Source of the DNA: Candidatus Neomarinimicrobiota bacterium
GTDB taxonomy: Bacteria; Fidelibacterota; UBA8477; JABMPR01
NCBI GenBank assembly: GCA_034716895.1
Contig: JAYEKW010000108.1
Coordinates: 1-38,809, forward strand
Length of the DNA: 38,809 bases
Reading direction: 5' to 3'
Positions 22,796-36,835 of the stretch are shown here, one piece after another (the first letter of the stretch is position 1; every line of letters begins with the position of its first letter). Position numbers and translations under genes: made by a program. The notes beneath the pieces were generated by a model. It saw only the letters and a list, made by a program, of their open reading frames with translations, had not been told where the DNA came from and did no database searches.

Positions 22796-23803
22796 TTAGT
22801 CCAGGTTCTTAATGCTTTCCAGAGCTTTGATTGTCTCGTCATAGCCTTTTTGGATCGCGATCTCGGCTTCCAGAAAATTCCAGGCTGACAAACCGGTACT
22901 AATATTGATCAACATATCCGGCATGGCTAATTCCACCTGATTGGCGGCAATGAGTGCCATTGACAAGATCACGGTCTCGTGGGCGATCTCTGCCAAATTG
23001 GGCTGACCAGCAGTATACCATGGCTCGTTTGCTTTGGGGATACGCCATTTGGATTTACTGTTTTCCAGATCATCACCATTTAGATAGGAAAACTCCTGTG
23101 TCGCATCTTTGCCTTCCGGAAAAGCCAGGACATTTACAGCAATGATGTAATCAGCCCCCATGGAACGGACTACATCAATGGGAACCGGATCGATCATGCC
23201 ACCATCTACCAGGATGCGATTACCGCTGGCAAGTGGATTAAAAACGATGGGAACAGAAGAACTGGCACGAGTCGCAGTGGCCAGGCTGCCCTTGTTGATT
23301 ACATAGAGGTCACCATTGAGGATATCCACGGTTGTGGCAGCAAAGGGTATTGCCAGATCTTCAATAGCTTTTGATCCATAGAGATCATCCAAATATAAGG
23401 TTATCTTTTGGCCATCGATAAACCCCCTGGTTGGGAAGATCGGATCCAAAAGATTCAAGACATCCAGCCAATTTGAATTTAAGGCGACATCCGAAAGTTC
23501 TGATACAGTCATACCGGCAGCATACCCGCCACCAATGATAGCCCCCATGCTGCTGCCAGCGATCATGTCTATGCGGACCCCAGCCTCTTCCAAAGCTTCC
23601 AGAACACCAACGTGGGCAAAACCCTTGGCTGCACCGGCACCCAAAGCCAGGCCCACAGAAAAGTCCTGCTTAGCTTTGCCCTGAAGTACCAGACTAAACT
23701 GCTTTTCCAGCTCCGGAGTGTTGAGGGGTGCTGCTATTATTTTGGTTCCAACCAGTAAACAACTTAAACCAATTGAGAACAGCAGTTTCAGTAGTGAATT
23801 CAT
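22796..23803 (-). CDS. Exported patatin-like phospholipase (RssA type)
   Basis: A 335-aa protein with an N-terminal signal (residues 1-25). The patatin domain has a GAGAAKG oxyanion segment (55-61), the nucleophile serine S85 in GSSMG (83-87) and the catalytic aspartate D199 in DGG (199-201), so the Ser-Asp dyad is intact. Patatins hydrolyse acyl chains from phospholipids or other lipids, and the signal suggests action in the periplasm or at the outer membrane. Its start overlaps the stop of the upstream nuclease gene by 4 bp (ATGA), implying one transcript. The shared purpose may be breakdown of lipid and nucleic acid for phosphorus or carbon. That is inference. Confidence 0.85.
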   Translation of the reverse strand: MNSLLKLLFSIGLSCLLVGTKIIAAPLNTPELEKQFSLVLQGKAKQDFSVGLALGAGAAKGFAHVGVLEALEEAGVRIDMIAGSSMGAIIGGGYAAGMTVSELSDVALNSNWLDVLNLLDPIFPTRGFIDGQKITLYLDDLYGSKAIEDLAIPFAATTVDILNGDLYVINKGSLATATRASSSVPIVFNPLASGNRILVDGGMIDPVPIDVVRSMGADYIIAVNVLAFPEGKDATQEFSYLNGDDLENSKSKWRIPKANEPWYTAGQPNLAEIAHETVILSMALIAANQVELAMPDMLINISTGLSAWNFLEAEIAIQKGYDETIKALESIKNLD

Positions 23804-24549
23804 TTATATAGATCATTCAGGATCGCTGCCAAATGATATCCAGCTTTGAGCAATCTATCTTCCATCAGTTCCCGGTTGCTATAGACATACTTCCAGGAAA
23901 GTTTGCCATCCCCGATGTCATAGACCTGATCATGCACTGCCCGGGAGCGATGGACAAAAGTCAGCACGGTTGGATCTAATAATTTTTGTTTGTCAGCAGC
24001 GGTGAGCCCCAATTGAATTTGCTGTGCATATTCAGTATAACTATACTGCATATGGTCGATCATTTGGCTGTCCCAGACACGGTGAAGATTAGTCTCTTCA
24101 CGAAACCAGGTCACCTTGATATCATTACCCCCTCGATCTGTTCCATTACCAACATGCAGGGGTTGATGCAAATCTCCAACAATATGTACCACAAAACGAA
24201 AAACATCCAGTTGATCCTGCTTACTGAGTGTCTCGGATTTTAGGAGTTTAGTGAACTCAGTAACTTTCTGCACTGCACGCCCACCGGCTTCAGGACCCTC
24301 ATAGTTATGCCCTTTAAGGATTGTACAATAGTGCCAATCATGAGAATGGTCCCATTTGGGATCGGACTTTATCTCGTCAGCCCAATTGCCGATTCGAGCT
24401 AGATCCGTGTGTCCCAGCAGTTGAGTAATTGCTTCCCTGGCTTGGGGACTTAAGTTTTCTTCAGCAATTATTCCAATGACCCGGTGACCGGTTTTCCCCC
24501 AACCAAGCAGGGTACTAACGGTAAACAGTAAGATAATGAATTGTCGCAA
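23800..24549 (-). CDS. S1/P1-type zinc nuclease, exported
   Basis: A 249-aa protein. The signal peptide ends before Trp17 (LLG|WGKTGHR). In S1/P1 nucleases the mature N-terminal Trp itself is a zinc ligand, so this cleavage position fits. Other ligands are visible: NWADEI, HDWHYC, FVVHIVGDLHQPLHVG and NLHRVWDS. The GGND motif follows LHVGNGTDRGGNDI. The enzyme degrades single-stranded RNA and DNA and often has 3'-nucleotidase activity. With a signal peptide it would act in the periplasm or outside. It forms a tight two-gene unit with the patatin gene. Confidence 0.9.
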   Translation of the reverse strand: MRQFIILLFTVSTLLGWGKTGHRVIGIIAEENLSPQAREAITQLLGHTDLARIGNWADEIKSDPKWDHSHDWHYCTILKGHNYEGPEAGGRAVQKVTEFTKLLKSETLSKQDQLDVFRFVVHIVGDLHQPLHVGNGTDRGGNDIKVTWFREETNLHRVWDSQMIDHMQYSYTEYAQQIQLGLTAADKQKLLDPTVLTFVHRSRAVHDQVYDIGDGKLSWKYVYSNRELMEDRLLKAGYHLAAILNDLYK

Positions 24550-24974: not shown

Positions 24975-26339
24975 CTATTTATCCTGATATTTTCTGATAA
25001 TCTGATCCCCTGGATAGCCAAGTGCTTTCCAGTCGATTCGCCTTTCCTGCCCACGATGGCAAGCCCTGCATTTCAGGGATTCTGATGCCGGGGCAACCAT
25101 GTGAGCGAGACCTGAATACATTTCAGTCGCAATAAAATCATAATGGCCGCTGTACTCCAGTTTGGCAGCCTTCATCCCCACTTCTGAGGCTCTATTCCAG
25201 TCAAAATGGGTCCAATATCCCTTCCAGAGTTGGGGTATTATTAAGTGTTTATTCTCTGTATCATAGATCTGTTTACCACGCATCACCTTGAAAGGGTACA
25301 GCTTGGCGTTTTCATCATCTCTATCTCCGAGAGGCTGGTTGATCATCACAACTTCACCGGGATCAACTTTATCACCCTTCAGATAGCGGGTTGTTTTACC
25401 ATTATACCAATAATATTCAGGAACCACATTGTTTTCCCAAACAAAGCTGCCCTTCTTCTTAAAGTAGGTGTCCATCCCATATTCATCTTTTTCACCTGTA
25501 CTGTCTTTGCCGGCGGTAGACCAGTCCCAATACATTTTTGTGGGCTTTCCCTTTGCATACAGTGGTATATGACATGATTGGCAAGCAACTTTTTCAACAT
25601 GTTTGTTGATGATCTTTGAACGATGCACATCCTCTTCATGACAGTCAAGACACTGCACCCTGTTGTCTTCATCGGTGAGGATAGCCATTGACTTACCCAT
25701 AATGTTGTGAGCTTCTGTGGTGTGGCAATCAGTACAGGTCATGTCGTTACCCATATGTACATCATAAGATGGATCCGCATCTACCAGACCATAATCAAGA
25801 TCACCGTGTTTTACATTCTCACCACCGCCACCATTGAAGTGACAACTCCCGCAGGTATTGATGGATGAATAGCCGACGCTTTGGGCAACTTTTGTCAGAT
25901 CTACACTTTCAAAGGGATAACCAGCCCCTTTTGGATTCTTCTTATAAGTACCGGTTTGATCATGGCAAATTAAGCAATCTACATTCTCTTCATTTTGAAA
26001 ATCAAAAGAATCGTCCTTCCAACCGTAGCCAACATGGCAACTGGTGCAACGTTCCCAATTTGATTCTACGGCAACACAATAATTATTGAACGAATTTGCT
26101 TTACCAATGGCATGTTTACCCCGATGTCCAGGAACAACTTTGGCTTTGTCTTTCCAGGTCCAGTGGATCGTTTTCATTACGTCACTTGCAGCATCTTCAT
26201 GGCAAGCCAGACAAGTCTCAGTGACCTCTTGCACAGTTAGCAGGGAATCTTCAATATGCTCTCTATGATCTTCCTGTGCTGGCGCAAGTCCAACACTTAG
26301 AAGTATACTAAAGAGAATTAGGTACAGTTTTCTTCGCAT
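24975..26339 (-). CDS. Octaheme c-type cytochrome, tetrathionate reductase-like family
   Basis: A 454-aa protein with a signal peptide (MRRKLYLILFSILLSVGLAPAQ). Eight CXXCH heme motifs are present: CLACH, CTSCH, CLICH, CGSCH, CTDCH, CLDCH, CQSCH and CRACH. Number, length and spacing suit the octaheme tetrathionate reductase (OTR) family of periplasmic multiheme enzymes. Family members reduce tetrathionate, nitrite or hydroxylamine in vitro, and the natural substrate is often unknown. Here it could be a terminal reductase or an electron-transfer end point fed by the 12-heme and tetraheme cytochromes upstream in the same orientation. It starts 190 bp after the 12-heme gene. The gap contains a hairpin, so transcript levels may differ. 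Confidence 0.85.
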   Translation of the reverse strand: MRRKLYLILFSILLSVGLAPAQEDHREHIEDSLLTVQEVTETCLACHEDAASDVMKTIHWTWKDKAKVVPGHRGKHAIGKANSFNNYCVAVESNWERCTSCHVGYGWKDDSFDFQNEENVDCLICHDQTGTYKKNPKGAGYPFESVDLTKVAQSVGYSSINTCGSCHFNGGGGENVKHGDLDYGLVDADPSYDVHMGNDMTCTDCHTTEAHNIMGKSMAILTDEDNRVQCLDCHEEDVHRSKIINKHVEKVACQSCHIPLYAKGKPTKMYWDWSTAGKDSTGEKDEYGMDTYFKKKGSFVWENNVVPEYYWYNGKTTRYLKGDKVDPGEVVMINQPLGDRDDENAKLYPFKVMRGKQIYDTENKHLIIPQLWKGYWTHFDWNRASEVGMKAAKLEYSGHYDFIATEMYSGLAHMVAPASESLKCRACHRGQERRIDWKALGYPGDQIIRKYQDK

Positions 26340-26529: not shown

Positions 26530-27534
26530 CTATTTCTTTTGGAGTACGATTCCCGGTAAAAAATCGGGATAAAGATACTCTTCATCATGACATTCCAGAC
26601 ATTCAGGTGGTTCTGAGTAACTCTCATCGAAATGGCATTCATAACAATCGATCTCAAGGTGATCTTCCGATAGTTGAAAACCGGTTGTTTCATGTTCAAA
26701 TGACCCAACCTCAAAATTATCATGACAAGCGATACAATTGTTTGCCAGCGCCTCAATCGGTTTCTGGTCAGCGTGACAATCAGAACAGGTATTGTCCCCA
26801 TGATAGGCTTTCAAAGGCCATCCAGTGAGATCATGACTAAACCCCTTGCTTACCTCATCCTGATGACAAAAACTGCAGGTGCCATCTGTTTCAGTATCAT
26901 GACAGCTTTGGCAGGAGGTATGGTGTTCCTCCTGGGTCTCAACAACCATTTTTACCGATCCTTGATAGTCGTGACAGCTGGCACAATTCTCAGAACGATG
27001 GCAACTCACACAATCGTATCGATAGAGTTCAATATGTTCCTTGTGATGAAAAGTAACCTGGGTTTCATTTTCATCCGGTGTTGGGAAGGTCACTATTTCT
27101 GGTGACCCGATATGTGGATGTTTTACTGAAAAGATATCAGTCTTATCCAGAGTCCTGCGTATGTTAAAGCGAAATTTCTTCTGCTGGTGGCATGCTTCAC
27201 AGAGCTGCTCATTTGACCATTCTCTATGACAGGCTAAGCAGCTGCGGTGATATGCACCATTAAGGGTCGGCTCTTCCAGGCTGGCTTCAGCTGGGTCATC
27301 CATGTGGCATTCAGCGCAACCTGTATAATCATCGTCTTCAGCATAGTGATGACACACAGAACACCCCTCACCCATATCTTCCATCCGGGCATGCTTCCCA
27401 TGATTGAATTCCACAGGATAGAAAATATTCTCCAAGGCGTCAATTTTTATTATTTCGGGGTAATCCTGCCCTTCTGATTGACCTAACAGTATTGTACCCG
27501 TCATGAGAAAGATCATTATGGGATAGAGTCTCAT
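26530..27534 (-). CDS. Dodecaheme (12 CXXCH) c-type cytochrome
   Basis: I choose the ATG at 27534 (MRLYPIMIFLMTGTILLGQ, a signal peptide; AAAGGG lies upstream), not the longer reading from 27570, giving 334 aa. Twelve heme motifs are visible: CSVCH, CAECH, CLACH, CEACH, CVSCH, CASCH, CQSCH, CSFCH, CSDCH, CIACH, CYECH and CLECH. One heme per about 28 residues with many extra His (FNHGKHARM, VTFHHKEHIE, GFSHDL, AYHGD) is characteristic of class III/c7-type chains with bis-His hemes. It probably conducts electrons along the periplasm, a role like that of HmcA in sulfate reducers. The divergent HybA/HybB-like membrane pair is a natural electron partner. Confidence 0.85.
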   Translation of the reverse strand: MRLYPIMIFLMTGTILLGQSEGQDYPEIIKIDALENIFYPVEFNHGKHARMEDMGEGCSVCHHYAEDDDYTGCAECHMDDPAEASLEEPTLNGAYHRSCLACHREWSNEQLCEACHQQKKFRFNIRRTLDKTDIFSVKHPHIGSPEIVTFPTPDENETQVTFHHKEHIELYRYDCVSCHRSENCASCHDYQGSVKMVVETQEEHHTSCQSCHDTETDGTCSFCHQDEVSKGFSHDLTGWPLKAYHGDNTCSDCHADQKPIEALANNCIACHDNFEVGSFEHETTGFQLSEDHLEIDCYECHFDESYSEPPECLECHDEEYLYPDFLPGIVLQKK

Positions 27535-27632
27535 ACGTTTACCCTTTTGCTTTCTGACGCGATGATTCATGATTTTTTAAGCCGTCTTATACCTAAGATT
27601 CTTTCTGGTCAGCTTTTTCTGGACCAATTGTA

Positions 27633-28199
27633 TCATTCTGGATAGGGATGATCAATTTCCTTTACCCGAACAGCATAATCGAAAGGTATGTAGGTTGGCG
27701 AGTCTGGATTATGACATTTTGTACAAGTAGCTTCATCAATTTTGACGTAACCCAGATTCTTGGCATCGATATCACCCGAGCGAATCTTCAGCATGGTCTT
27801 TTTTGATTTGTAGGCATTTCCAGGGCCATGACAAGATTCACACCCAACTCTAGATAAATCTTTATTTTTCTTAACTGCACGGGCATTGGTTTCATCAATA
27901 TCCAGTGAATATCCACCAGCCTCTCCCCAACCGGTTACGTGGCATCGTAAACATTCAGGTGACTTTTCCGGTGCAGTTTTCAATCCCTGCTTTGCGGCAA
28001 TCTTTTTTGATTCGTCGGTGAGTAAGGTCTCATAGGAACGGGAATGGGCTCTGGATTCCCATATTTTATACTGAGATCCCTTTTCAGCCTTATTATGACA
28101 GATTTTACATTTCTTGGATCCAACATTTTTTATTGGTTTTCCCTGAGCAAAGATACCAACACAAGCCAGTATCAGTAATAATGTAAATAATCGTTTCAT
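27633..28199 (-). CDS. Tetraheme cytochrome c554-like protein
   Basis: The start is chosen at ATG 28199 (MKRLFTLLLILACVGIFAQ, a good signal peptide, preceded by GAGGAG). The longer frame from 28259 adds 20 poor residues and would begin at about the predicted transcription start. The 188-aa product has four heme motifs: CKICH, CLRCH, CESCH and CTKCH. The layout (KKCKICH, then KIWESRAHSRSYETL, then SPECLRCHVTGWG, then VGCESCHGPG) closely matches the cytochrome c554 family, whose SxxHxxxY(E/D)xL helix is visible. It probably shuttles electrons in the periplasm. It is the first gene after the leftward sigma-54 promoter. Confidence 0.85.
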   Translation of the reverse strand: MKRLFTLLLILACVGIFAQGKPIKNVGSKKCKICHNKAEKGSQYKIWESRAHSRSYETLLTDESKKIAAKQGLKTAPEKSPECLRCHVTGWGEAGGYSLDIDETNARAVKKNKDLSRVGCESCHGPGNAYKSKKTMLKIRSGDIDAKNLGYVKIDEATCTKCHNPDSPTYIPFDYAVRVKEIDHPYPE

Positions 28200-28277: not shown

Positions 28278-28292
28278 GCAACTAGAATGCCA
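28278..28292 (-). promoter_or_regulatory. Sigma-54 (-24/-12) promoter for the cytochrome genes
   Basis: On the minus strand the sequence reads TGGCAT-TCTAG-TTGCC. That is an almost perfect match to TGGCAC-N5-TTGC with correct spacing. The predicted start point is near 28267, giving a leader of about 67 nt before ATG 28199. A sigma-54 activator is encoded in the opposite arm of the cluster. Confidence 0.75.
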
Positions 28293-28347
28293 CTTTGTAC
28301 CGAATTCTTTGTTCTCAGCTGCCTTTGGGTTGTAAAAGATGGCTAAT

Positions 28348-28364
28348 TGTTGAATATATCTACA
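28348..28364. promoter_or_regulatory. Activator-site dyad 1 (degenerate)
   Basis: TGTTGAA-TAT-ATCTACA. The left half is perfect. The right half matches TTCAACA in five of seven positions. It is centred about 89 bp upstream of the predicted leftward start. Confidence 0.5.
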
Positions 28365-28477
28365 CATCTCACAATTATTTAATCTGCCTAACATATTGTT
28401 TTATCAGTCTCATCGAAGCTATTAATAAATAAATCCGAACTATTTTAAGAGCTATTTGGAAAACTTTTTTTGAAATG

Positions 28478-28494
28478 TTGAATTTTTCACCACA
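28478..28494. promoter_or_regulatory. Activator-site dyad 2
   Basis: TGTTGAA-TTT-TTCACCA. The left half is perfect and the right half matches in six of seven positions, with the same 3-bp spacer. It lies roughly midway between the two promoters. Confidence 0.55.
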
Positions 28495-28621
28495 TGGACA
28501 TGTCTCGCCTCCTTTTCCCAAATCACAGATAAACAATAGTACGCAGCCTAGGTAACATGCAACAGCATATAACATACTGTTATTATTTTGCATACATCCT
28601 TTTAATGAATCATTTTCGAGG

Positions 28622-28638
28622 TGTTGAGATTATCTACA
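28622..28638. promoter_or_regulatory. Activator-site dyad 3 (degenerate)
   Basis: TGTTGAG-ATT-ATCTACA, two bases before dyad 4. It shares the ATCTACA right half with dyad 1. Adjacent paired sites often allow cooperative binding of sigma-54 activators. Confidence 0.45.
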
Positions 28639-28640
28639 TC

Positions 28641-28657
28641 TGTTGAATTATTCAACA
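28641..28657. promoter_or_regulatory. Activator-site dyad 4 (perfect palindrome)
   Basis: TGTTGAA-TTA-TTCAACA is a perfect 7-bp inverted repeat with a 3-bp spacer. It is centred about 179 bp upstream of the predicted rightward start, a usual distance for enhancer-binding proteins of the NtrC class. Confidence 0.7.
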
Positions 28658-28707
28658 TACTTTCTAATTGGCTTAAACATTGATTTTCGCTTCATATTTC
28701 CTGAATA

Positions 28708-28724
28708 CGTTGAACATTTCAACA
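28708..28724. promoter_or_regulatory. Activator-site dyad 5 (near-perfect palindrome)
   Basis: CGTTGAA-CAT-TTCAACA has 6-bp perfect arms GTTGAA/TTCAAC and the same 3-bp spacer. It is centred about 112 bp upstream of the predicted rightward start. Confidence 0.7.
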
Positions 28725-28802
28725 TATTTCACTTTTGGGCCTAAAAATAGTGATCAGCTCTATGTTATTGTTATTACTGCGTTAAGTGCGCCTAATTCGC
28801 CT

Positions 28803-28817
28803 TGGCACTGCTCTTGA
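28803..28817 (+). promoter_or_regulatory. Sigma-54 (-24/-12) promoter for the GcvH-HybA-HybB-like operon
   Basis: TGGCAC-TGCTC-TTGA has a perfect -24 box and spacing. The -12 box has A instead of C after TTG. The predicted start point is near 28828, 24 nt before ATG 28852, which has a strong AAAGGAGG. It pairs with the divergent sigma-54 promoter at 28278-28292. Confidence 0.65.
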
Positions 28818-28851
28818 AATAGATATGGTGAACTAAAAAAGGAGGTTCGTC

Positions 28852-29562
28852 ATGGTCGTCATTCTAGTCATTTTATTTGCAGCCACTGCCATTTTCATCA
28901 CCTGGTTTCAGGGAATGAAAAGGTACCAGGCTTTAAGCATTTCACCCATTGTGAAAAAACAAGCTTATCAGTTCAAGATGGAAAACCTTGCCATCCCAGC
29001 AGGCATCTACTTCAGTCCCACCCATAGTTGGGCTCACTTGGAAACCAGCGGTCAAGCCAAAATTGGCATCGATGCATTCATTCAGGGACTCACCGGAATC
29101 CTTTCTGCGGTGCATGTACCAAAAGAGGGCGTCACCATTAAGCAGGGTGAGCCGCTTTTCAGTATCGTCCACAAGGAGAAGAAGCTGGTGATATCAGCGC
29201 CTATCTCAGGAAAGATCAAATCGATCAATACTGAAGCATTACAAAATATGCGGATGGTTCACCGTGACCCATATTCATACGGATGGTTAGTGGAAATGGA
29301 ACCCAGTGATTGGGAAACGGAAACCCAGCTACTTTACCTGGGTCAACGTACCACTGCCTGGCTTAAAACTGAAATCGCTCGCATCCGAGATTTCTTTGCT
29401 CATTCATTTGCACCACCAAACGCTGAAAGTGGACTGGTATTACTACAGGATGGTGGAGACATTGCTGAATGTGCCCTGGCATTTTCCGGAAAAGGCCTTT
29501 GGGGCTCTTTCCAAAAACTGATTCTTGACCAGGCTAACACAGAATTAATACTGAATTCCTGA
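28852..29562 (+). CDS. Membrane-anchored GcvH-like (lipoyl-fold) protein 1
   Basis: A 236-aa protein. One N-terminal membrane helix (residues 2-20) is followed by basic residues (MKRYQ), which suggests the domain lies in the cytoplasm. Residues about 50-150 follow the H-protein pattern of the glycine cleavage system: THSWAHLETSGQAKIGIDAFIQGLTG, then KQGEPLFSIVHKEKKLVISAPISGKIKSIN. A lysine (K110) sits at the hairpin tip seven residues before the conserved Pro, one place nearer than in true GcvH. Lipoylation is possible but not assured. The C-terminal 80 residues are extra. It is the first gene of the rightward operon and has no glycine-cleavage neighbours, so glycine metabolism is unlikely. 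Confidence 0.7.
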   Translation: MVVILVILFAATAIFITWFQGMKRYQALSISPIVKKQAYQFKMENLAIPAGIYFSPTHSWAHLETSGQAKIGIDAFIQGLTGILSAVHVPKEGVTIKQGEPLFSIVHKEKKLVISAPISGKIKSINTEALQNMRMVHRDPYSYGWLVEMEPSDWETETQLLYLGQRTTAWLKTEIARIRDFFAHSFAPPNAESGLVLLQDGGDIAECALAFSGKGLWGSFQKLILDQANTELILNS

Positions 29563-29619: not shown

Positions 29620-30489
29620 ATGTCAATCGATCGCAGAGAATTTCTTAAAACCCTGGGGGTTGCTGGTGCTGGTCTTACCGGCGTCTCAGCCCTGGGGAAA
29701 TCCAAACCTGAACCTGATGCTGAAGAGTTCTATGCCATCCTGCACGACATCACGCTCTGTGAGGGCTGTCAGGAATGTGAGTTTGCCTGTGCTACAGAGT
29801 ATGGTTTGCCAACACCCAGTGATGATGACTATCCAGATAGCTCTGTTAAACGTGAACTATTACCTGAGAGATACACCGTCATTAATGCAGTTGAAACATC
29901 AGTTGGTGAGGTTTATACCAAACAACAGTGCATGCATTGCGCTCAACCGGCTTGTGCATCCGCCTGTTTAACCCAAGCCATGAAAAAGCAGGAATCCGGT
30001 CCAGTTACCTGGGACGCAGGGAAATGTATGGGCTGCCGTTATTGCATGATCTCATGTCCTTTCGATATCCCAAAATTTGAATACGACAGCAACAATCCGA
30101 AGATCGGGAAATGCCAGATGTGTTTTGACAAGCTTAAAGAAGGTGAAGCACCTGCCTGTGTTGAAGCTTGTCCAGCGGAAGCCCTCATTTTTGGAAAGCG
30201 AAGTGATCTGTTAAGAATAGCTCATAAACGTATCTTGGATAACCCCGGCACCTACACTGACCATGTCTATGGTGAATTTGAGGCGGGGGGAACATCCTGG
30301 CTAAACCTCTCACCTGTTCCCTTTAAAGAATTGGGCTTTAATACGAATGTTGAGACCAAGCCCTATCCTGAACTAACCAAAGGGTTTCTATACAGTGTAC
30401 CCTCTGTTTTCATCCTATGGCCAGCTTTGCTTATGGGTTTAAGAGAAGCCACCAGGACCGATAGTGAGGAAGGGGCAGACCATGAGTGA
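29620..30489 (+). CDS. HybA/HmcB-like ferredoxin subunit, 4x[4Fe-4S], Tat-exported
   Basis: A 289-aa protein with a Tat signal (DRREFLKTLGVAGAGLTG). Sixteen cysteines form four ferredoxin-type cluster sites: C47/50/53/57, C104/107/112/116, C136/139/142/146 and C165/168/180/184. A C-terminal hydrophobic helix (about 250-272, FLYSVPSVFILWPALLMGL) would anchor it in the membrane, as in HybA and HmcB. In such complexes this subunit passes electrons between a periplasmic partner and the quinone site of the NrfD-type subunit. No hydrogenase or molybdoenzyme subunit is present. The multiheme cytochromes of the divergent arm are therefore the likely periplasmic partner. It overlaps the next gene by 8 bp. 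Confidence 0.85.
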   Translation: MSIDRREFLKTLGVAGAGLTGVSALGKSKPEPDAEEFYAILHDITLCEGCQECEFACATEYGLPTPSDDDYPDSSVKRELLPERYTVINAVETSVGEVYTKQQCMHCAQPACASACLTQAMKKQESGPVTWDAGKCMGCRYCMISCPFDIPKFEYDSNNPKIGKCQMCFDKLKEGEAPACVEACPAEALIFGKRSDLLRIAHKRILDNPGTYTDHVYGEFEAGGTSWLNLSPVPFKELGFNTNVETKPYPELTKGFLYSVPSVFILWPALLMGLREATRTDSEEGADHE

Positions 30490-31705
30490 GCAAATACTAA
30501 CTCCTCCCTCCAGCTATTGGAAGTTTTTTAAGTCTGAGCTGAAACCGCGAGCCAGTCTTTGGACAGTCTTCAATATAATATCGGTTCCCACCGTATTACT
30601 GGCAGCTGTTATCATTGTGATCCGGTTTATCTACGGATTGGGAGCTGTTTCCAACGTAACACAGAGCGTACCCTGGGGGCTTTGGAAAGGTTTCAATGTT
30701 GTGACTGGTGTTGCCTTTGCTGGCGGAGCCTATGTGTTAACCTTCATGGTTTACATTCTAGGCCAAGAGAAATATAAACCACTGATTCGGGTAACGGTTC
30801 TCAATGGTTTTCTGGCGTATACTTTTTACGCTTTTGCTTTGGTTCTGGATCTTGGCAAACCCTGGAATATCATCAACCCAATCATTGGCAATTCATTTGG
30901 CACCAGCAGCATCCTGTTTCTGGTGGCCTGGCATTTTATGCTCTATATCGTTGCGCAAATGGTTGAATTCTCACCAACAGTCGCCGAATGGCTGGGGTCT
31001 GAGCGTGCCCGTCGCAACTTGAAACGTCTCACAATTGGAGCAGTAGTTTTCGGGATTACCCTGTCTACACTCCATCAATCAGGCTTGGGAGCCCTGTTTC
31101 TCATGGCCAAAGGCAAGATCCATCCACTTTGGTATTCAGAATTTATTCCCACCCTGTTTTTTATTTCCAGTGTCTTTGCTGGTTTAAGTGTGGTGATCTT
31201 TCAGGGAAGCATCCTGCAGCGGGTCTTTTCCTATCAGATGGATGAGCATAGTGATGAACGTCATAATGTCATGATCCGTGGTCTTTCTCGGGTCTGTGCA
31301 CTATCCATGTTCGCTTACTTCTTCCTTAAGATCATCGACATGGTCCACAATCACACGTTAAGCCTCCTGACAACATCTATGGGTGTCTGGTATTTGGTGG
31401 AATTGATCGGGTTTGTGCTGATTCCCATGCTCTTGTTTGCGTATGGAGTTCGAATTGGAACACCCAAAATCATCAAGTTGGCATCTATCATGACCATCAT
31501 AGGAATTGTGTTAAACCGCATGAATATCTCGGTCATCGCCTACCGCTGGGATGAGATTCCACGTTATATCCCAACCTGGATGGAATTTGTGGTAACTATC
31601 TCCATCCTGTTTGTCCAGTTCTGGATCTTCCGTTGGGTTCTCCACCGCATGCCGGTATTAAGAACAATGGAATCAATGACGCAAACCGCAAATAGTAAAG
31701 GATAA
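30482..31705 (+). CDS. HybB/NrfD-type integral membrane subunit
   Basis: I choose ATG 30482 (MSEQILTPPSSYWKFF), preceded by GAGGAAGGGG and overlapping the ferredoxin stop, instead of a GTG 18 bp upstream. The 407-aa product has about ten hydrophobic helices. Typical HybB-like stretches are QSVPWGLWKGFNVVTGVAFAG and STLHQSGLGALFLMAKGKIH. NrfD-family proteins bind and oxidise or reduce quinones in the inner membrane and dock to an FeS subunit, here the product of the previous gene. The protein has no heme of its own. Together the pair would link the quinone pool to periplasmic cytochromes; direction of flow is unknown. Confidence 0.85.
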   Translation: MSEQILTPPSSYWKFFKSELKPRASLWTVFNIISVPTVLLAAVIIVIRFIYGLGAVSNVTQSVPWGLWKGFNVVTGVAFAGGAYVLTFMVYILGQEKYKPLIRVTVLNGFLAYTFYAFALVLDLGKPWNIINPIIGNSFGTSSILFLVAWHFMLYIVAQMVEFSPTVAEWLGSERARRNLKRLTIGAVVFGITLSTLHQSGLGALFLMAKGKIHPLWYSEFIPTLFFISSVFAGLSVVIFQGSILQRVFSYQMDEHSDERHNVMIRGLSRVCALSMFAYFFLKIIDMVHNHTLSLLTTSMGVWYLVELIGFVLIPMLLFAYGVRIGTPKIIKLASIMTIIGIVLNRMNISVIAYRWDEIPRYIPTWMEFVVTISILFVQFWIFRWVLHRMPVLRTMESMTQTANSKG

Positions 31706-31712
31706 TTTTATC

Positions 31713-32408
31713 ATGGAAAGTTTTTTTTATACAAACATGTTCGCCACCAAAGGGATCGAGTACTTATTGATCATCAGCTTCTTCCTGGTTCTCATCCCCT
31801 TCTACAATTACTTGAAAGAAGTGGAAGGTCCCCTTTTCTCTCTATCAAAAGTACGTCTGCCAAAAGGCGTCTTCTTTGATAAAACCCATACCTGGGCATA
31901 TCTGCGATCAGCTGGACAAGTTCAAGTTGGTATCGATGATTTTTTAGCAGCGCTGACGGGTTCTGTCTCAATCAGCCTTATGAAGCAAAGCGGAGAAGTT
32001 GTTAAACGGGGGGACCATCTAGCGACGCTGATGGGTGAGGGCAAAAGCCTGAAGATCTATTCACCGGTAAGCGGAACCTTAAAGGCCATCAACCAGAGCG
32101 CTCTGAAAAGGTTCAGCAAACGCACCAACAATGATTTTACTCAGAACTGGTTGTTTGATATGGAACCCATGCGTTGGGATCTGGAGAAAACCATGCTTAT
32201 TCTCGGTGAAAAAGCTCAAACATGGATCCAGAATGAACAGACCCGCCTGCGAGATGTCCTGGCTTTTGCAGAACGTAAATATGATCTGACTGCTCAACCC
32301 GTCCTACTCCAGGAGGGAGGCGAGATCACTGATCATGTCCTGGAAACCTTGGCTCCAGAGTTCTGGGAAGAATTTCAGAGCGAATTTATTGATGCCGTAA
32401 AAAGCTAA
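31713..32408 (+). CDS. Membrane-anchored GcvH-like (lipoyl-fold) protein 2
   Basis: A 231-aa protein starting 7 bp after the HybB-like gene, with AAAGGA upstream. It parallels GcvH-like protein 1: one N-terminal membrane helix (about 14-33), then THTWAYLRSAGQVQVGIDDFLAALTG, then RGDHLATLMGEGKSLKIYSPVSGTLKAIN. Lysine K111 is again seven residues before the conserved Pro, in a shortened hairpin (EGK). Its C-terminal half (NWLFDMEPMRWDLEKTMLILGEKAQTW) is alignable with that of protein 1 (GWLVEMEPSDWETETQLLYLGQRTTAW). The two are therefore paralogues flanking the FeS/NrfD pair. Possible roles are carrying a lipoyl group or acting as a non-catalytic assembly factor. Confidence 0.7.
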   Translation: MESFFYTNMFATKGIEYLLIISFFLVLIPFYNYLKEVEGPLFSLSKVRLPKGVFFDKTHTWAYLRSAGQVQVGIDDFLAALTGSVSISLMKQSGEVVKRGDHLATLMGEGKSLKIYSPVSGTLKAINQSALKRFSKRTNNDFTQNWLFDMEPMRWDLEKTMLILGEKAQTWIQNEQTRLRDVLAFAERKYDLTAQPVLLQEGGEITDHVLETLAPEFWEEFQSEFIDAVKS

Positions 32409-32509: not shown

Positions 32510-33214
32510 ATGGACTCACAAAAGTGTATCTGGATGGAAGCTGGAGTTGTAGACTACCAGCTTTGTCCTCTCAAACAAAATTGTGACCTCTGCGATTTTC
32601 ACAAGGAAATGATCAGAGGTTGCCGAACCCAGTTTTCAGAATCGACATCAGCCAAAATAGGCTTACGCTACCCTGATGACTCCGTTCTCCAATTTCAGCC
32701 GGGACTCCAATACCTGGATGGGCATTTCTGGTACAGACGAACTGCGGCAGGTAGACTTCGCCTGGGTATCGATTCATTTCTTTGGCAGCTTTTTTCCTCA
32801 ATCCAAAAAGTGATCACGCCAAAGAATGGGAGCATCCTGGTTCAGGATCAATGTTTTAGCTGGTTGCTGCTGGAAGGGGGGATAATCTACCTCAAAACAC
32901 CTATCCAGGGTCAGATCCTGGAAATCAACCCATTTTTTCAAACTGGTGAGATCAAGGATACCCATCTCTATCTAGCTCCGGAAAATGAACTCTGGATTCT
33001 GGAATTGGAAGAAAGCGAACAGCAGAAGTATCACAGTCTGAGCAAGGATCAATACTTTGCTCAAGCTGAAGAAGACTGTAACAAATTTCATAAGCTTATC
33101 CAGACACCAGGATCCCCAGAGCAGTTTACCCATCCACGAACTTCTCATCTCACTAAAAATGATTTTTCAAAATACCTGCAATCAATCACCGACAATCACG
33201 CCTTCATTTGTTAA
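32510..33214 (+). CDS. Soluble GcvH-like protein 3 with N-terminal four-cysteine motif
   Basis: A 234-aa protein with no membrane helix. It begins with KCIWMEAGVVDYQLC and continues to CDLCDF, giving C6, C19, C25 and C28, a possible metal- or cluster-binding site. The GcvH-like part (about 65-150) is recognisable from RLRLGIDSFLWQLF and NGSILVQDQCF ... IYLKTPIQGQILEIN. The hairpin tip has glycines (EGG, 122-124) where proteins 1 and 2 have lysine, so it cannot be lipoylated there. It may be a regulatory or structural relative of the other two. It lies directly before the two-component genes, which suggests a link to signalling or assembly. Confidence 0.65.
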   Translation: MDSQKCIWMEAGVVDYQLCPLKQNCDLCDFHKEMIRGCRTQFSESTSAKIGLRYPDDSVLQFQPGLQYLDGHFWYRRTAAGRLRLGIDSFLWQLFSSIQKVITPKNGSILVQDQCFSWLLLEGGIIYLKTPIQGQILEINPFFQTGEIKDTHLYLAPENELWILELEESEQQKYHSLSKDQYFAQAEEDCNKFHKLIQTPGSPEQFTHPRTSHLTKNDFSKYLQSITDNHAFIC

Positions 33215-33286
33215 CTGGCATGTATTCTGCATTATTCACTATAACTACTATTTACTAACTCAAGCATAGTAGCTTTGGAGAATAAC

Positions 33287-34957
33287 ATGAGCTCACCGCT
33301 TAACCAGGCTTCACTGAAACAATATGAACCCCGTTCTTGGAGGAATATCTTCCAAACCCGTTCGCTCTATGGTCATTTGGTTTTCCTTTTGCTCTTTATG
33401 TCAGTTTTCCTTTTTGGATTTTTTGCCTGGCTCATTTTTTCAATGTCAAATAACTACCTTGAAGATGTTACCACCCGTTGCGGCAAACGTATGGCTGGCT
33501 TGATTAATCAGACCATTCGCAGCAGCATGTTCTCTGAAGATCATGCTGAACTAACCACGGCCATCCGCAAGGTTAAGGAAGTTCCCGGTGTCAGCGCGAT
33601 CCGAATCTATAATAACCGGGGTGAGGTGAAACATTATACCCTGGGAAACAAAAACGCCTGTCACAAAGACACCTCGAAAATCCCATTTCTAAATCTTCAT
33701 CACTCAAGTGACTCTCTCTTCCGGGAAATTCATTCAACCTGTGTCCATAGTATTGAAGATGATGGGAATCGCTGTATGATCATCCATGCTCCCATCGTTT
33801 CTACACCTGACTGTCGTTCTTCCGGGTGCCATCAGAGCCAGGATCATGCTGAGATTCTGGGCGTCACAGAAATTAAGTTACCTCTGACAGAAATGGATCA
33901 TGCTCTGAATCGTATTCTTTATGAATATTCCAGTCTGGTGATCATTTTTCTTGTGCTGATCATGGGAACCCTGCTTTTCTTTGTCCAGCGTCGGATCAAT
34001 CTGCCTCTTAAACGAATTGTGGATACCAGCCGGGCCGTATCAAACGGAAATTTGTCAGTACGGGTAAATTTAAAGTCCGATGACCTGGTTGATATTCACC
34101 AGGTCGGATTAGCTCTTAATACCATGTTAGAATCGATCAATCAGAGCAATCATGAGCTGCGTCAATGGTCCAATGAGTTGGAAAATAAAGTTCGGACCAA
34201 ATCAGAGGATATTGCCCGAAGTCAAAATGAGATTTTTCAGATCGAACGGCTGGCGTCCCTGGGACGGCTTTCATCATCGGTGGCTCACGAGATCAATAAT
34301 CCTCTGGCTGGCGTGCTTACCTACGCCAAGTTAGTCTCGCGAATTCTACAGGGTCCAGCCCTAACGGATGAAAAGAAGACAGCTATCCTGAAACATCTGG
34401 ATATGATCCAATCTGAGACCACCCGTTGTGGGCATATCGTGAAAGGCTTGCTTAATTTTTCCAGAGATCGCAGTCACAAATTTGACGTGCTCCAACTGAA
34501 TGACGTACTTCGGGAAACTCAACAACTTATCCAGCATAGTTTTCAAATATCAGACGTTCGTCTAGTAACAGATTTTTCAGCCGCACGAGATCAGATCCAG
34601 GCGAATGGGAACCAGATCATTCAGGCTTGTCTGGCTGTATTGACCAATGCACTGGAAGCAGTCGATGGCGTTGGCGATAATCTGGTCACCTATCGTAGCT
34701 ATAACCCTGACATGACCCACATTGTCATCGAAATTCGGGACAATGGTATTGGTATTCCAACTGAGGATATTGAACATATTTTTGAACCGTTTTTTTCACG
34801 GAAGAAAGAAATGTCCGGGATTGGTTTGGGACTGGCTGTCACCTATGGAATTCTGGAACAACACAATGCCAAGGTAGCCATCGAATCTGCTCCAGGTCTG
34901 GGTACCAGCATTAAATTCACATTTGAACTAGCAAACGGGAGTGAACCTGATGAATAA
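33287..34957 (+). CDS. Sensor histidine kinase with putative heme-binding periplasmic domain
   Basis: The start is ATG 33287 (GGAG six bases upstream), not the TTG at 33275, giving 556 aa. Membrane helices at about 32-52 and 215-233 enclose a periplasmic domain of about 160 residues. It contains ACH (125-126) and then DCRSSGCHQ, a CX4CH motif (C176, C181, H182) placed just before ILGVTEIKLPL. In related sensors a CXXCH heme site stands there, and CX4CH is an accepted heme motif in cytochromes c3. A HAMP domain follows, then the phospho-accepting His334 (VAHEINNPLAG) and an ATPase domain (NALEAV, RDNGIGI, GIGLGL). It overlaps the regulator gene and probably senses redox state or a heme ligand. 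Confidence 0.85.
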   Translation: MSSPLNQASLKQYEPRSWRNIFQTRSLYGHLVFLLLFMSVFLFGFFAWLIFSMSNNYLEDVTTRCGKRMAGLINQTIRSSMFSEDHAELTTAIRKVKEVPGVSAIRIYNNRGEVKHYTLGNKNACHKDTSKIPFLNLHHSSDSLFREIHSTCVHSIEDDGNRCMIIHAPIVSTPDCRSSGCHQSQDHAEILGVTEIKLPLTEMDHALNRILYEYSSLVIIFLVLIMGTLLFFVQRRINLPLKRIVDTSRAVSNGNLSVRVNLKSDDLVDIHQVGLALNTMLESINQSNHELRQWSNELENKVRTKSEDIARSQNEIFQIERLASLGRLSSSVAHEINNPLAGVLTYAKLVSRILQGPALTDEKKTAILKHLDMIQSETTRCGHIVKGLLNFSRDRSHKFDVLQLNDVLRETQQLIQHSFQISDVRLVTDFSAARDQIQANGNQIIQACLAVLTNALEAVDGVGDNLVTYRSYNPDMTHIVIEIRDNGIGIPTEDIEHIFEPFFSRKKEMSGIGLGLAVTYGILEQHNAKVAIESAPGLGTSIKFTFELANGSEPDE

Positions 34958-36290
34958 GAATCTTTCCATATTGATTGTCGACGATGAGCTTTCTGTAAGA
35001 GATTCACTCTCGAACTGGTTTATTGAAGATGGCTACTCCGTAGATACTGCCGAAGATGCCAAGGTAGCATTAAGAAAGATCGAAGCTTTTAACTTCCACA
35101 TTATCCTGGTTGACATCAAACTTCCCGGTATGGATGGTCTGGAATTAAACCGACGAATCAAGTCTATCAATGAAGATACTATTGTGATCATCATGACCGC
35201 TTTTGCTTCAGTTGATTCAGCTGTTCAAGCCTTGAAGGACGGGGCTTATGATTATGTCTGTAAACCATTTGACCCTGACGCAGTGACCCATATTATTAGA
35301 AATGCCAGCAAGAATATCGAGTTGAGTACGGAGAATCTTTCGCTTCAGGAGCGAATCAAGAGTTTAGCCAATGTGGAAGATATAATTGGCCAAAGTGAAG
35401 CTATTCTACAAGTATTGGAACAGGTTCGGGTAGTAGCAGAAACTGATTCTACTGTCATAATTACCGGTGATAGCGGAACAGGCAAGGAGTTGGTCGCTAA
35501 AGCTGTCCATATGAACTCATCCAGACGTTTTTTCCCCATGGTGACCGTGCATTGCGGTGCTATTGCTGAGAACCTGATGGAAAGTGAACTGTTTGGGCAT
35601 GAGCGGGGAGCCTTCACCGGAGCCCAGTATGCTCGAAAGGGCAAATTCGAGATGGCTGATGGTGCCACCTTGTTCCTGGATGAGATATCCACTGTCTCCA
35701 TGAAAATGCAAATAGAATTGCTGCGGGTGCTAGAGACCAAACAATTCACCAGGGTTGGAGGAAATCGCGAACTTAAGTCCGATTTTCGAGTGATCTGCGC
35801 CACAAATCGTAACCTTAAATCAATGGTTGATGCAGGTGAATTCAGGGAAGACCTCTACTACCGCTTAAATGTTTTTACCATCGACATTCCCCCCTTACGT
35901 GAGCGGGTTGAAGACATTAAGCTATTGGCCTTACATTTTGTAAAACTGTATGCTGAACAAATGAATAGACCAACAAAATTTATTGGTAAACGCGCCATGA
36001 ATGCGTTGGAGAATTATCCTTTTCCCGGAAATGTGCGTGAATTGGAAAATCTTATCGAAAGAGCCATTGTTATCGGGACCGGTGATAGTGTTCGCTTGAA
36101 AGACCTTCCCTTTGATCGTGTTCTTTCAAAACCTACCTGGGAATCCATCGGGGAGATGGAACATCACCACATTGAAACCATCCTGGATAAATACAACTGG
36201 AATATTTCACGCTCAGCACAAGCTCTTGGTGTTGATCGCGTTACCCTCTACAGTAAAATAAAAAAATACAAGATTGAGAAAGCCAACTAG
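34950..36290 (+). CDS. Sigma-54-dependent response regulator (NtrC family)
   Basis: A 446-aa protein counted from ATG 34950; a GTG at 34941 is an alternative. Receiver domain at 1-120 with phospho-acceptor Asp55 (LVDIKLPG) and Lys in CKPF. The AAA+ domain has Walker A GDSGTGKE (173-180) and the sigma-54 contact loop GAFTGA (220-225). The C-terminus is a Fis-type helix-turn-helix (NWNISRSAQALGVDRVTLYSKIKKYKI). The gene overlaps the kinase stop by 8 bp, so they form a cognate pair. Its likely targets are the two sigma-54 promoters and the TGTTGAA-N3-TTCAACA dyads at 28278-28817. Being in the rightward arm itself, it would be positively autoregulated. Confidence 0.9.
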   Translation: MNKNLSILIVDDELSVRDSLSNWFIEDGYSVDTAEDAKVALRKIEAFNFHIILVDIKLPGMDGLELNRRIKSINEDTIVIIMTAFASVDSAVQALKDGAYDYVCKPFDPDAVTHIIRNASKNIELSTENLSLQERIKSLANVEDIIGQSEAILQVLEQVRVVAETDSTVIITGDSGTGKELVAKAVHMNSSRRFFPMVTVHCGAIAENLMESELFGHERGAFTGAQYARKGKFEMADGATLFLDEISTVSMKMQIELLRVLETKQFTRVGGNRELKSDFRVICATNRNLKSMVDAGEFREDLYYRLNVFTIDIPPLRERVEDIKLLALHFVKLYAEQMNRPTKFIGKRAMNALENYPFPGNVRELENLIERAIVIGTGDSVRLKDLPFDRVLSKPTWESIGEMEHHHIETILDKYNWNISRSAQALGVDRVTLYSKIKKYKIEKAN

Positions 36291-36304: not shown

Positions 36305-36835
36305 ATGTCCTCAATCAGGATAATTCCATTGCAATTTGCTCGAGTGGATATACTCGAAAATATGCTCCCGCTTATCAATTCTCGTCTTCAAATGGAAACC
36401 CATTTAGTCCCATTTCACCTTGATCTGACTGCTTTCTTTGACCCCGTGCGTTCACAGTATAACGCAAATGAGATCATCAAAAGCCTGGTTCCCCCGTCTG
36501 AAGAAGGTGATAAGATCGTTGGTGTAACGGATCTGGATCTCTTTATCCCGGTCCTCAGTTATATCTTTGGGCAGGCTTATCTGGGTGGTTCGGCAGCATT
36601 GATATCTGGGCATCGCTTGGAGAACAGTCGCTATGGCATGCCAAATGATTCTCAAATATTTGCTGATCGTCTGTTAAAATGCGTACTCCATGAACTGGGG
36701 CATACGATGGGTTTAATTCACTGTCTTAAACCAGGTTGCGTCATGGTATCCACCACCTATGTAGAAGAGATGGATCAAAAATCAGATCGATTTTGCGGGA
36801 AGTGCCTTTCAGAATTAAGCGCATTACGACCATAA
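36305..36835 (+). CDS. Archaemetzincin-type zinc metallopeptidase
   Basis: A 176-aa protein 14 bp after the regulator gene. The signature is complete: HELGHTMGLIH (H129, E130, H133, H139), followed at once by C140, then C145 and M147 (HCLKPGCVM), and a late CGKC (C164, C167). This equals the archaemetzincin motif HEXXHXXGXXHCX4CXM...CXXC, with one catalytic zinc and a second structural zinc held by four cysteines. No signal peptide is seen, so it should be cytoplasmic. The family is best known from archaea and vertebrates and is patchy in bacteria. Substrates are poorly known. Closeness to the regulator gene suggests cotranscription, but a shared function is not evident. Confidence 0.85.
   Translation: MSSIRIIPLQFARVDILENMLPLINSRLQMETHLVPFHLDLTAFFDPVRSQYNANEIIKSLVPPSEEGDKIVGVTDLDLFIPVLSYIFGQAYLGGSAALISGHRLENSRYGMPNDSQIFADRLLKCVLHELGHTMGLIHCLKPGCVMVSTTYVEEMDQKSDRFCGKCLSELSALRP

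Follow-up and report, generated by a model that had tools for sequence, protein, structure and literature searches.

Results

The window that we analysed, 38,809 nucleotides of the genome of an uncultured marine Candidatus Neomarinimicrobiota, contains two sets of genes that diverge from one intergenic region. On the minus strand, the first gene encodes a cytochrome c554-like multihaem protein (27633-28199, ATG at 28199; PF13435, 1.8e-18). It is followed by a cytochrome c3/c7-type multihaem protein (26530-27570; PF02085, PF14522) and, at the end of this arm, by an octahaem tetrathionate reductase-family cytochrome (24975-26339), which scores well above the cut-off of its family (TIGR04315, 572.4 bits for a cut-off of 375) and matches PDB 1sp3 (E 2e-146). 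A second gene of this family is found elsewhere in the genome (G000:C46:46440-47717). Beyond the cytochromes, the window has a gene at 23800-24549 whose protein starts with MRQFIILLFTVSTLLGWGKTGHRVIG.

The plus-strand operon starts with a GcvH-like protein (28852-29562; PF01597, 1.5e-17), an HmcB/HybA-like FeS protein (29620-30489) and an HmcC/HybB-like membrane subunit of the NrfD family (30464-31705). Two further GcvH-like proteins follow, the second of the operon (31713-32408; PF01597, 1.8e-10) and a diverged third one (32510-33214; weak GcvH match, E 4.6e-5, below the cut-off). Then come a histidine kinase (33275-34957), an NtrC-type response regulator (34941-36290) and, as the last conserved gene of the operon, an archaemetzincin-family metalloprotease (36305-36835). 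The match of the latter to NF033823 is marginal (145.3 bits for a cut-off of 145), and its position is conserved: an archaemetzincin-family gene comes after the regulator gene in both phyla where we found the operon (L042-L056 and L073-L102). The families that the FeS and NrfD subunits match best are Hmc (HmcB/HmcC) and HybA/HybB. The scores fall short of the cut-offs of both HmcB (322.7 bits for 420) and HmcC (359.7 bits for 550), which leaves the pair outside Hmc in the strict sense. A search of PDB sequences with the NrfD subunit gave no match. Judging from these families, the operon is likely to encode a quinone module that passes electrons to multihaem cytochromes of the periplasm.

One respiratory operon thus has three GcvH-like proteins, and those that were scored all fall below the GcvH cut-offs (e.g. 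64.6 bits for the first, against an equivalog cut-off of 115.85). In translation, the first two have an N-terminal hydrophobic segment. The ESVKA lipoyl-lysine motif is not recognisable in these proteins, nor is the nearest lysine invariant among homologues, so that their lipoylation is doubtful. In two Bacteroidota loci (L080 and L083), the first gene of the operon is much longer, encoding 561-588 amino acids, and reaches almost to the FeS gene. Its N-terminal part resembles, by eye, a periplasmic binding protein, and the GcvH-like match lies inside the gene, which gives it the appearance of a fusion.

A first-pass annotation of this DNA had proposed back-to-back sigma-54 promoters in the intergenic region, TGGCAT-N5-TTGCC on the minus strand and TGGCAC-N5-TTGA on the plus strand, both with exact -24/-12 spacing. 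We find both where it placed them. The minus promoter, upstream of the cytochromes, is TGGCATTCTAGTTGCC (28278-28293), i.e. TGGCAT-TCTAG-TTGCC read from 28293 to 28278, with the GG-N10-GC arrangement and exact -24/-12 spacing of sigma-54 promoters. The plus promoter, upstream of the operon, is TGGCACTGCTCTTGAA (28803-28818), i.e. TGGCAC-TGCTC-TTGAA. It has the arrangement GG-N10-GA, where the spacing and the GG and G are as in the canonical promoter and the C at -12 is replaced by A. Taking this C (minus) or A (plus) as position -12, the predicted start of the minus transcript is 28267, as annotated before, and that of the plus transcript is 28829 instead of 28828. The leaders are then of about 68 nt to the ATG at 28199 and of 23 nt to the ATG at 28852. 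The proposal also called for an rpoN gene in the genome. There is one, in a single copy (G000:C2:5657-6127; PF04552, E 3.8e-57).

The motif TGGCAY-N5-TTGM occurs twice in the 38.8-kb window, exactly at these two promoters, for 0.49 occurrences expected. Yet 11 of 100 shuffled windows had at least two matches. Taken alone, the matches are therefore suggestive and weak evidence, and the relatives of the locus carry more weight.

The first-pass annotation overlooked a 17-bp palindrome, TGTTGAA-N3-TTCAACA, that is present five times between the two promoters. We describe these copies as candidate enhancer sites, giving their slots as distances from the TGGCA of the plus promoter. The one closest to the minus promoter (28348-28364, 2 mismatches) is centred 77 bp from its -12 element, and its slot, around -455, is occupied in several relatives too. 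The next (28476-28492, 1 mismatch) is at around -327, also found in relatives. Two adjacent sites, at -181 (28622-28638, 3 mismatches) and -162 (28641-28657, perfect, TGTTGAATTATTCAACA), occupy slots common to Bacteroidota. The last (28708-28724, 1 mismatch), at -95, is centred 101 bp from the plus -12 element. Centres at 77 and 101 bp are at usual distances for the enhancer sites of sigma-54 activators. As for NtrC-type proteins, the candidate sites are dyad-symmetric and lie roughly 80-200 bp upstream of a promoter. Pattern searches of the 3.45-Mb genome show that 28641-28657 is its only perfect match, and that, if one mismatch is allowed, there are four matches, three of them in this intergenic region. 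We found no cluster elsewhere among the genome-wide matches listed. The fourth match, the best one outside the window (contig G000:C104), was considered as a second target and rejected, since it lies inside an ORF of 336 amino acids.

The operon of GcvH-like, FeS, NrfD, GcvH-like, histidine kinase, regulator and archaemetzincin genes is found again within the genus and in numerous Bacteroidota, most of them Prolixibacteraceae and relatives. All 16 Neomarinimicrobiota loci have the plus promoter in the same place and with TTGA, in intergenic DNA that is otherwise poorly conserved. In Bacteroidota, TGGCAY-N5-TTG, with A or G as the next base in most cases, is found upstream of the first gene in 24 of the 26 loci that could be assessed; the other two (L096 and L099) have palindromes and no recognisable promoter. 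It is this conservation in place that leads us to accept the plus promoter as real. The plus arm is also present in named Bacteroidota strains such as Draconibacterium orientale and Sunxiuqinia elliptica, which makes the system amenable to bench tests.

The palindromes are conserved as well. We defined the motif on the window, counted it across loci with at most two mismatches and took the expected numbers from first-order Markov sequences. There are 40 palindromes in the upstream regions (560 bp each) of the 16 Neomarinimicrobiota loci for 0.14 expected, four of them in the window itself. In Bacteroidota, 24 regions of at most 250 bp contain 38, for 0.19 expected. Genomes of the same phylum are kin and these counts are not of independent events; the recurrence across phyla is the stronger point. 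The slots at around -95, -162 and -181 are fixed in both phyla.

The minus arm has a much narrower distribution. Among the 16 Neomarinimicrobiota loci, we found the cytochromes only in the window, in L042 (same genome as L059), where the octahaem gene is the only one of the arm that we found, and in L058, whose contig ends inside the first cytochrome gene. Each of the three genomes with the arm has the TGGCAT-N5-TTGCC promoter, which was not found in the other 13 loci. A motif limited to three close relatives could be a chance match, in which case the plus promoter alone would depend on sigma-54 and the cytochromes would use another promoter. In the three genomes, a longer block downstream of the minus promoter, to TTGACAAATA, is also conserved, so that the -24/-12 core is not singled out by conservation, and two matches in one window are, by our shuffles, not uncommon. 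Yet the minus promoter has the canonical TTGC, its core is intact in L058 where the spacer is TCAAC instead of TCTAG, and its presence and absence coincide with those of the arm. Furthermore, each of the three genomes has a palindrome-like site upstream of it at a constant distance, although the one of L058 is weak (3 mismatches). We regard a chance match as unlikely, and a genuine divergent sigma-54 switch, of a familiar type, as very likely.

How did the minus arm arise? In loci without cytochromes for which ORFs were listed, the operon is adjoined by a homologue of the window's gene at 23800-24549, on the far side of the cytochromes. The distal palindromes, at around -327 and -455, persist in several loci without cytochromes and thus do not belong to the minus arm alone. 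On the simplest reading, a cytochrome cassette would have entered the intergenic region and been placed under a regulator that was already there. A loss of the cassette in the other genomes is a possible alternative.

The operon-encoded regulator has the domains expected of an NtrC-type protein: a receiver with the phospho-accepting Asp, an AAA+ sigma-54 activator domain with Walker A and a Fis-type HTH. Its GAFTGA loop, noted in the first-pass annotation, is at residues 226-231. Orthologues in the same genus are 84-96% identical. The GAFTGA is invariant and the recognition region of the HTH near-identical in both phyla, VDRVTLY[S/N]KI[K/R]KY. The kinase has a Cx3CH motif in its sensor region, where homologues also have CxxCH; these haem-type motifs suggest haem-based or redox sensing.

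The palindromes are most likely the binding sites of this GAFTGA-type regulator. With so many paralogues of this regulator type in the genome (28 scored matches in G000), one might argue that another transcription factor binds them. But the palindromes and the regulator, with its near-identical HTH, co-occur in two phyla. The loci L094 and L101-L105 with homologous FeS/NrfD genes, in which we found no regulator above about 50% identity, have no palindrome with at most two mismatches upstream of these genes. Finally, the position of the palindromes, some 100-190 bp upstream, fits an enhancer-binding protein. A different binder is in our opinion improbable, slightly more so than the chance match discussed above for the minus promoter. 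The claim that the two arms form one regulon, made earlier without knowledge of the array, gains support from a palindrome array that lies between the promoters and is conserved with the regulator in two phyla.

The sigma-54 consensus of Desulfovibrio vulgaris has tTGCt at -12, i.e. the canonical TTGC (PMC4641369). The plus box is TTGA in the window as in the other Neomarinimicrobiota loci, and TTGG in many Bacteroidota. We searched for similar sites in 12 genomes of the same genus, using N4 and N6 spacings as controls, a reversed pattern being too lenient for sigma-54 motifs. By hand count, there are 67 sites TTGGCAY-N5-TTGAA, compared with 16 for N4 and 27 for N6, where the N5 sites include orthologous ones and are not all independent. 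TTGGCAY-N5-TTGAT shows no excess at N5 in these genomes (24, against 43 with N4). In the window's own genome, none of the 25 TTGGCAY-N5-TTG sites continues with C, and in the three Bacteroidota genomes checked the base is mixed. The sites of the window's own genome include one 75 bp before dnaK (L110, G000:C6:35747) and one 32 bp before a pilin gene (L123, G000:C125:15542). That the plus TTGA is a decayed -12 element, the operon being driven by a sigma-70-type promoter, is very improbable: the box does differ from TTGC and a 9/12 sigma-70-like match overlaps it, but it is invariant between variable flanks in the 16 Neomarinimicrobiota loci, its form is enriched over the N4 and N6 spacings and recurs before the pilin gene, and sigma-70-like matches are no commoner than in shuffled sequence.

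Discussion

We consider it quite probable that the locus is a two-armed sigma-54 control region served by the operon-encoded regulator via the palindrome array. From the promoter motifs, the array, their conservation, the domains of the regulator and the presence of rpoN, we infer how binding, looping, signal, electron flow and co-expression could fit together; that the regulator, the kinase and both arms form one circuit is suggested by gene neighbourhood. Sigma-54 RNA polymerase would be held at both promoters in a closed complex. The kinase would sense a redox or respiratory signal through its sensor domain with c-haem-type motifs and phosphorylate the regulator, whose dimers on the TGTTGAA-N3-TTCAACA palindromes would form an AAA+ ring. 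Looping of the DNA would then let the GAFTGA loops meet sigma-54 at either promoter and open it. The plus arm would yield the HmcBC/HybAB-like quinone module and the GcvH-like proteins, and also more kinase and regulator, i.e. positive autoregulation. The minus arm would yield the multihaem cytochromes, including the octahaem tetrathionate reductase-family enzyme, as the presumed periplasmic partner of the module.

Divergent sigma-54 operons with a shared regulator are a known architecture. In D. vulgaris, the orp operons are of this kind (Fievet 2011, cited in PMC4641369), and as far as that citation goes they differ in comprising other genes, whereas here a two-component regulator would control a respiratory locus. 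The same holds for the divergent type III secretion operons sharing DVUA0100, which encode secretion genes and whose regulator is treated as a one-component type (PMC4641369). Closer in content is DVU3142/Ohc of the same bacterium, where an octahaem cytochrome, an FeS protein and a membrane subunit are predicted to be under sigma-54 and an enhancer-binding protein (PMC4641369). Yet DVU3142 is itself divergent from ohc, whereas here the regulator is inside the operon and the cytochromes are the divergent arm; the membrane subunit is also of the NrfD type, unlike in the Ohc complex. Hmc differs as well, since here no HmcA-family protein over the cut-off accompanies the subunits, and GcvH-like proteins and an archaemetzincin are found instead. 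Our literature searches found no description of a respiratory locus with NrfD, GcvH-like and archaemetzincin proteins. The regulon, the operator sequence and the HmcBC-like/GcvH-like/archaemetzincin locus appear to be new. They provide a concrete, testable regulon, with promoters, operator, regulator and sensor, for a respiratory locus in two phyla, and a likely example of a cytochrome cassette brought under an existing enhancer array.

The results on the -12 element raise the question of whether sigma-54 of Neomarinimicrobiota, and perhaps of Bacteroidota, reads a relaxed box, TTGA/T/G instead of TTGC. We put this forward tentatively, as somewhat less probable than the contrary. The minus promoter has TTGC, so that C at -12 is apparently still accepted. 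The recognition helix of sigma-54 is DISTISRV in this genome and in five Bacteroidota-type genomes, against HESTISRV in E. coli. Of Glu378 and Arg383, two residues described as highly conserved and as cross-linking to promoter DNA (PMC5505868), the sigma-54 of these genomes keeps Arg383 and has Ile at the position of Glu378. One might speculate that this Ile could cause the relaxation. If -12 is indeed relaxed, proteobacterial matrices would miss many sigma-54 promoters in these phyla, and searches based on TTGC may overlook them in these groups.

The regulatory genes are not always tied to the operon. In L056 (G028), where the stretch read has no FeS/NrfD genes, a regulator 56-57% identical to ours is found with a kinase and an archaemetzincin. 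The trio of regulator, kinase and archaemetzincin thus exists apart from the respiratory genes.
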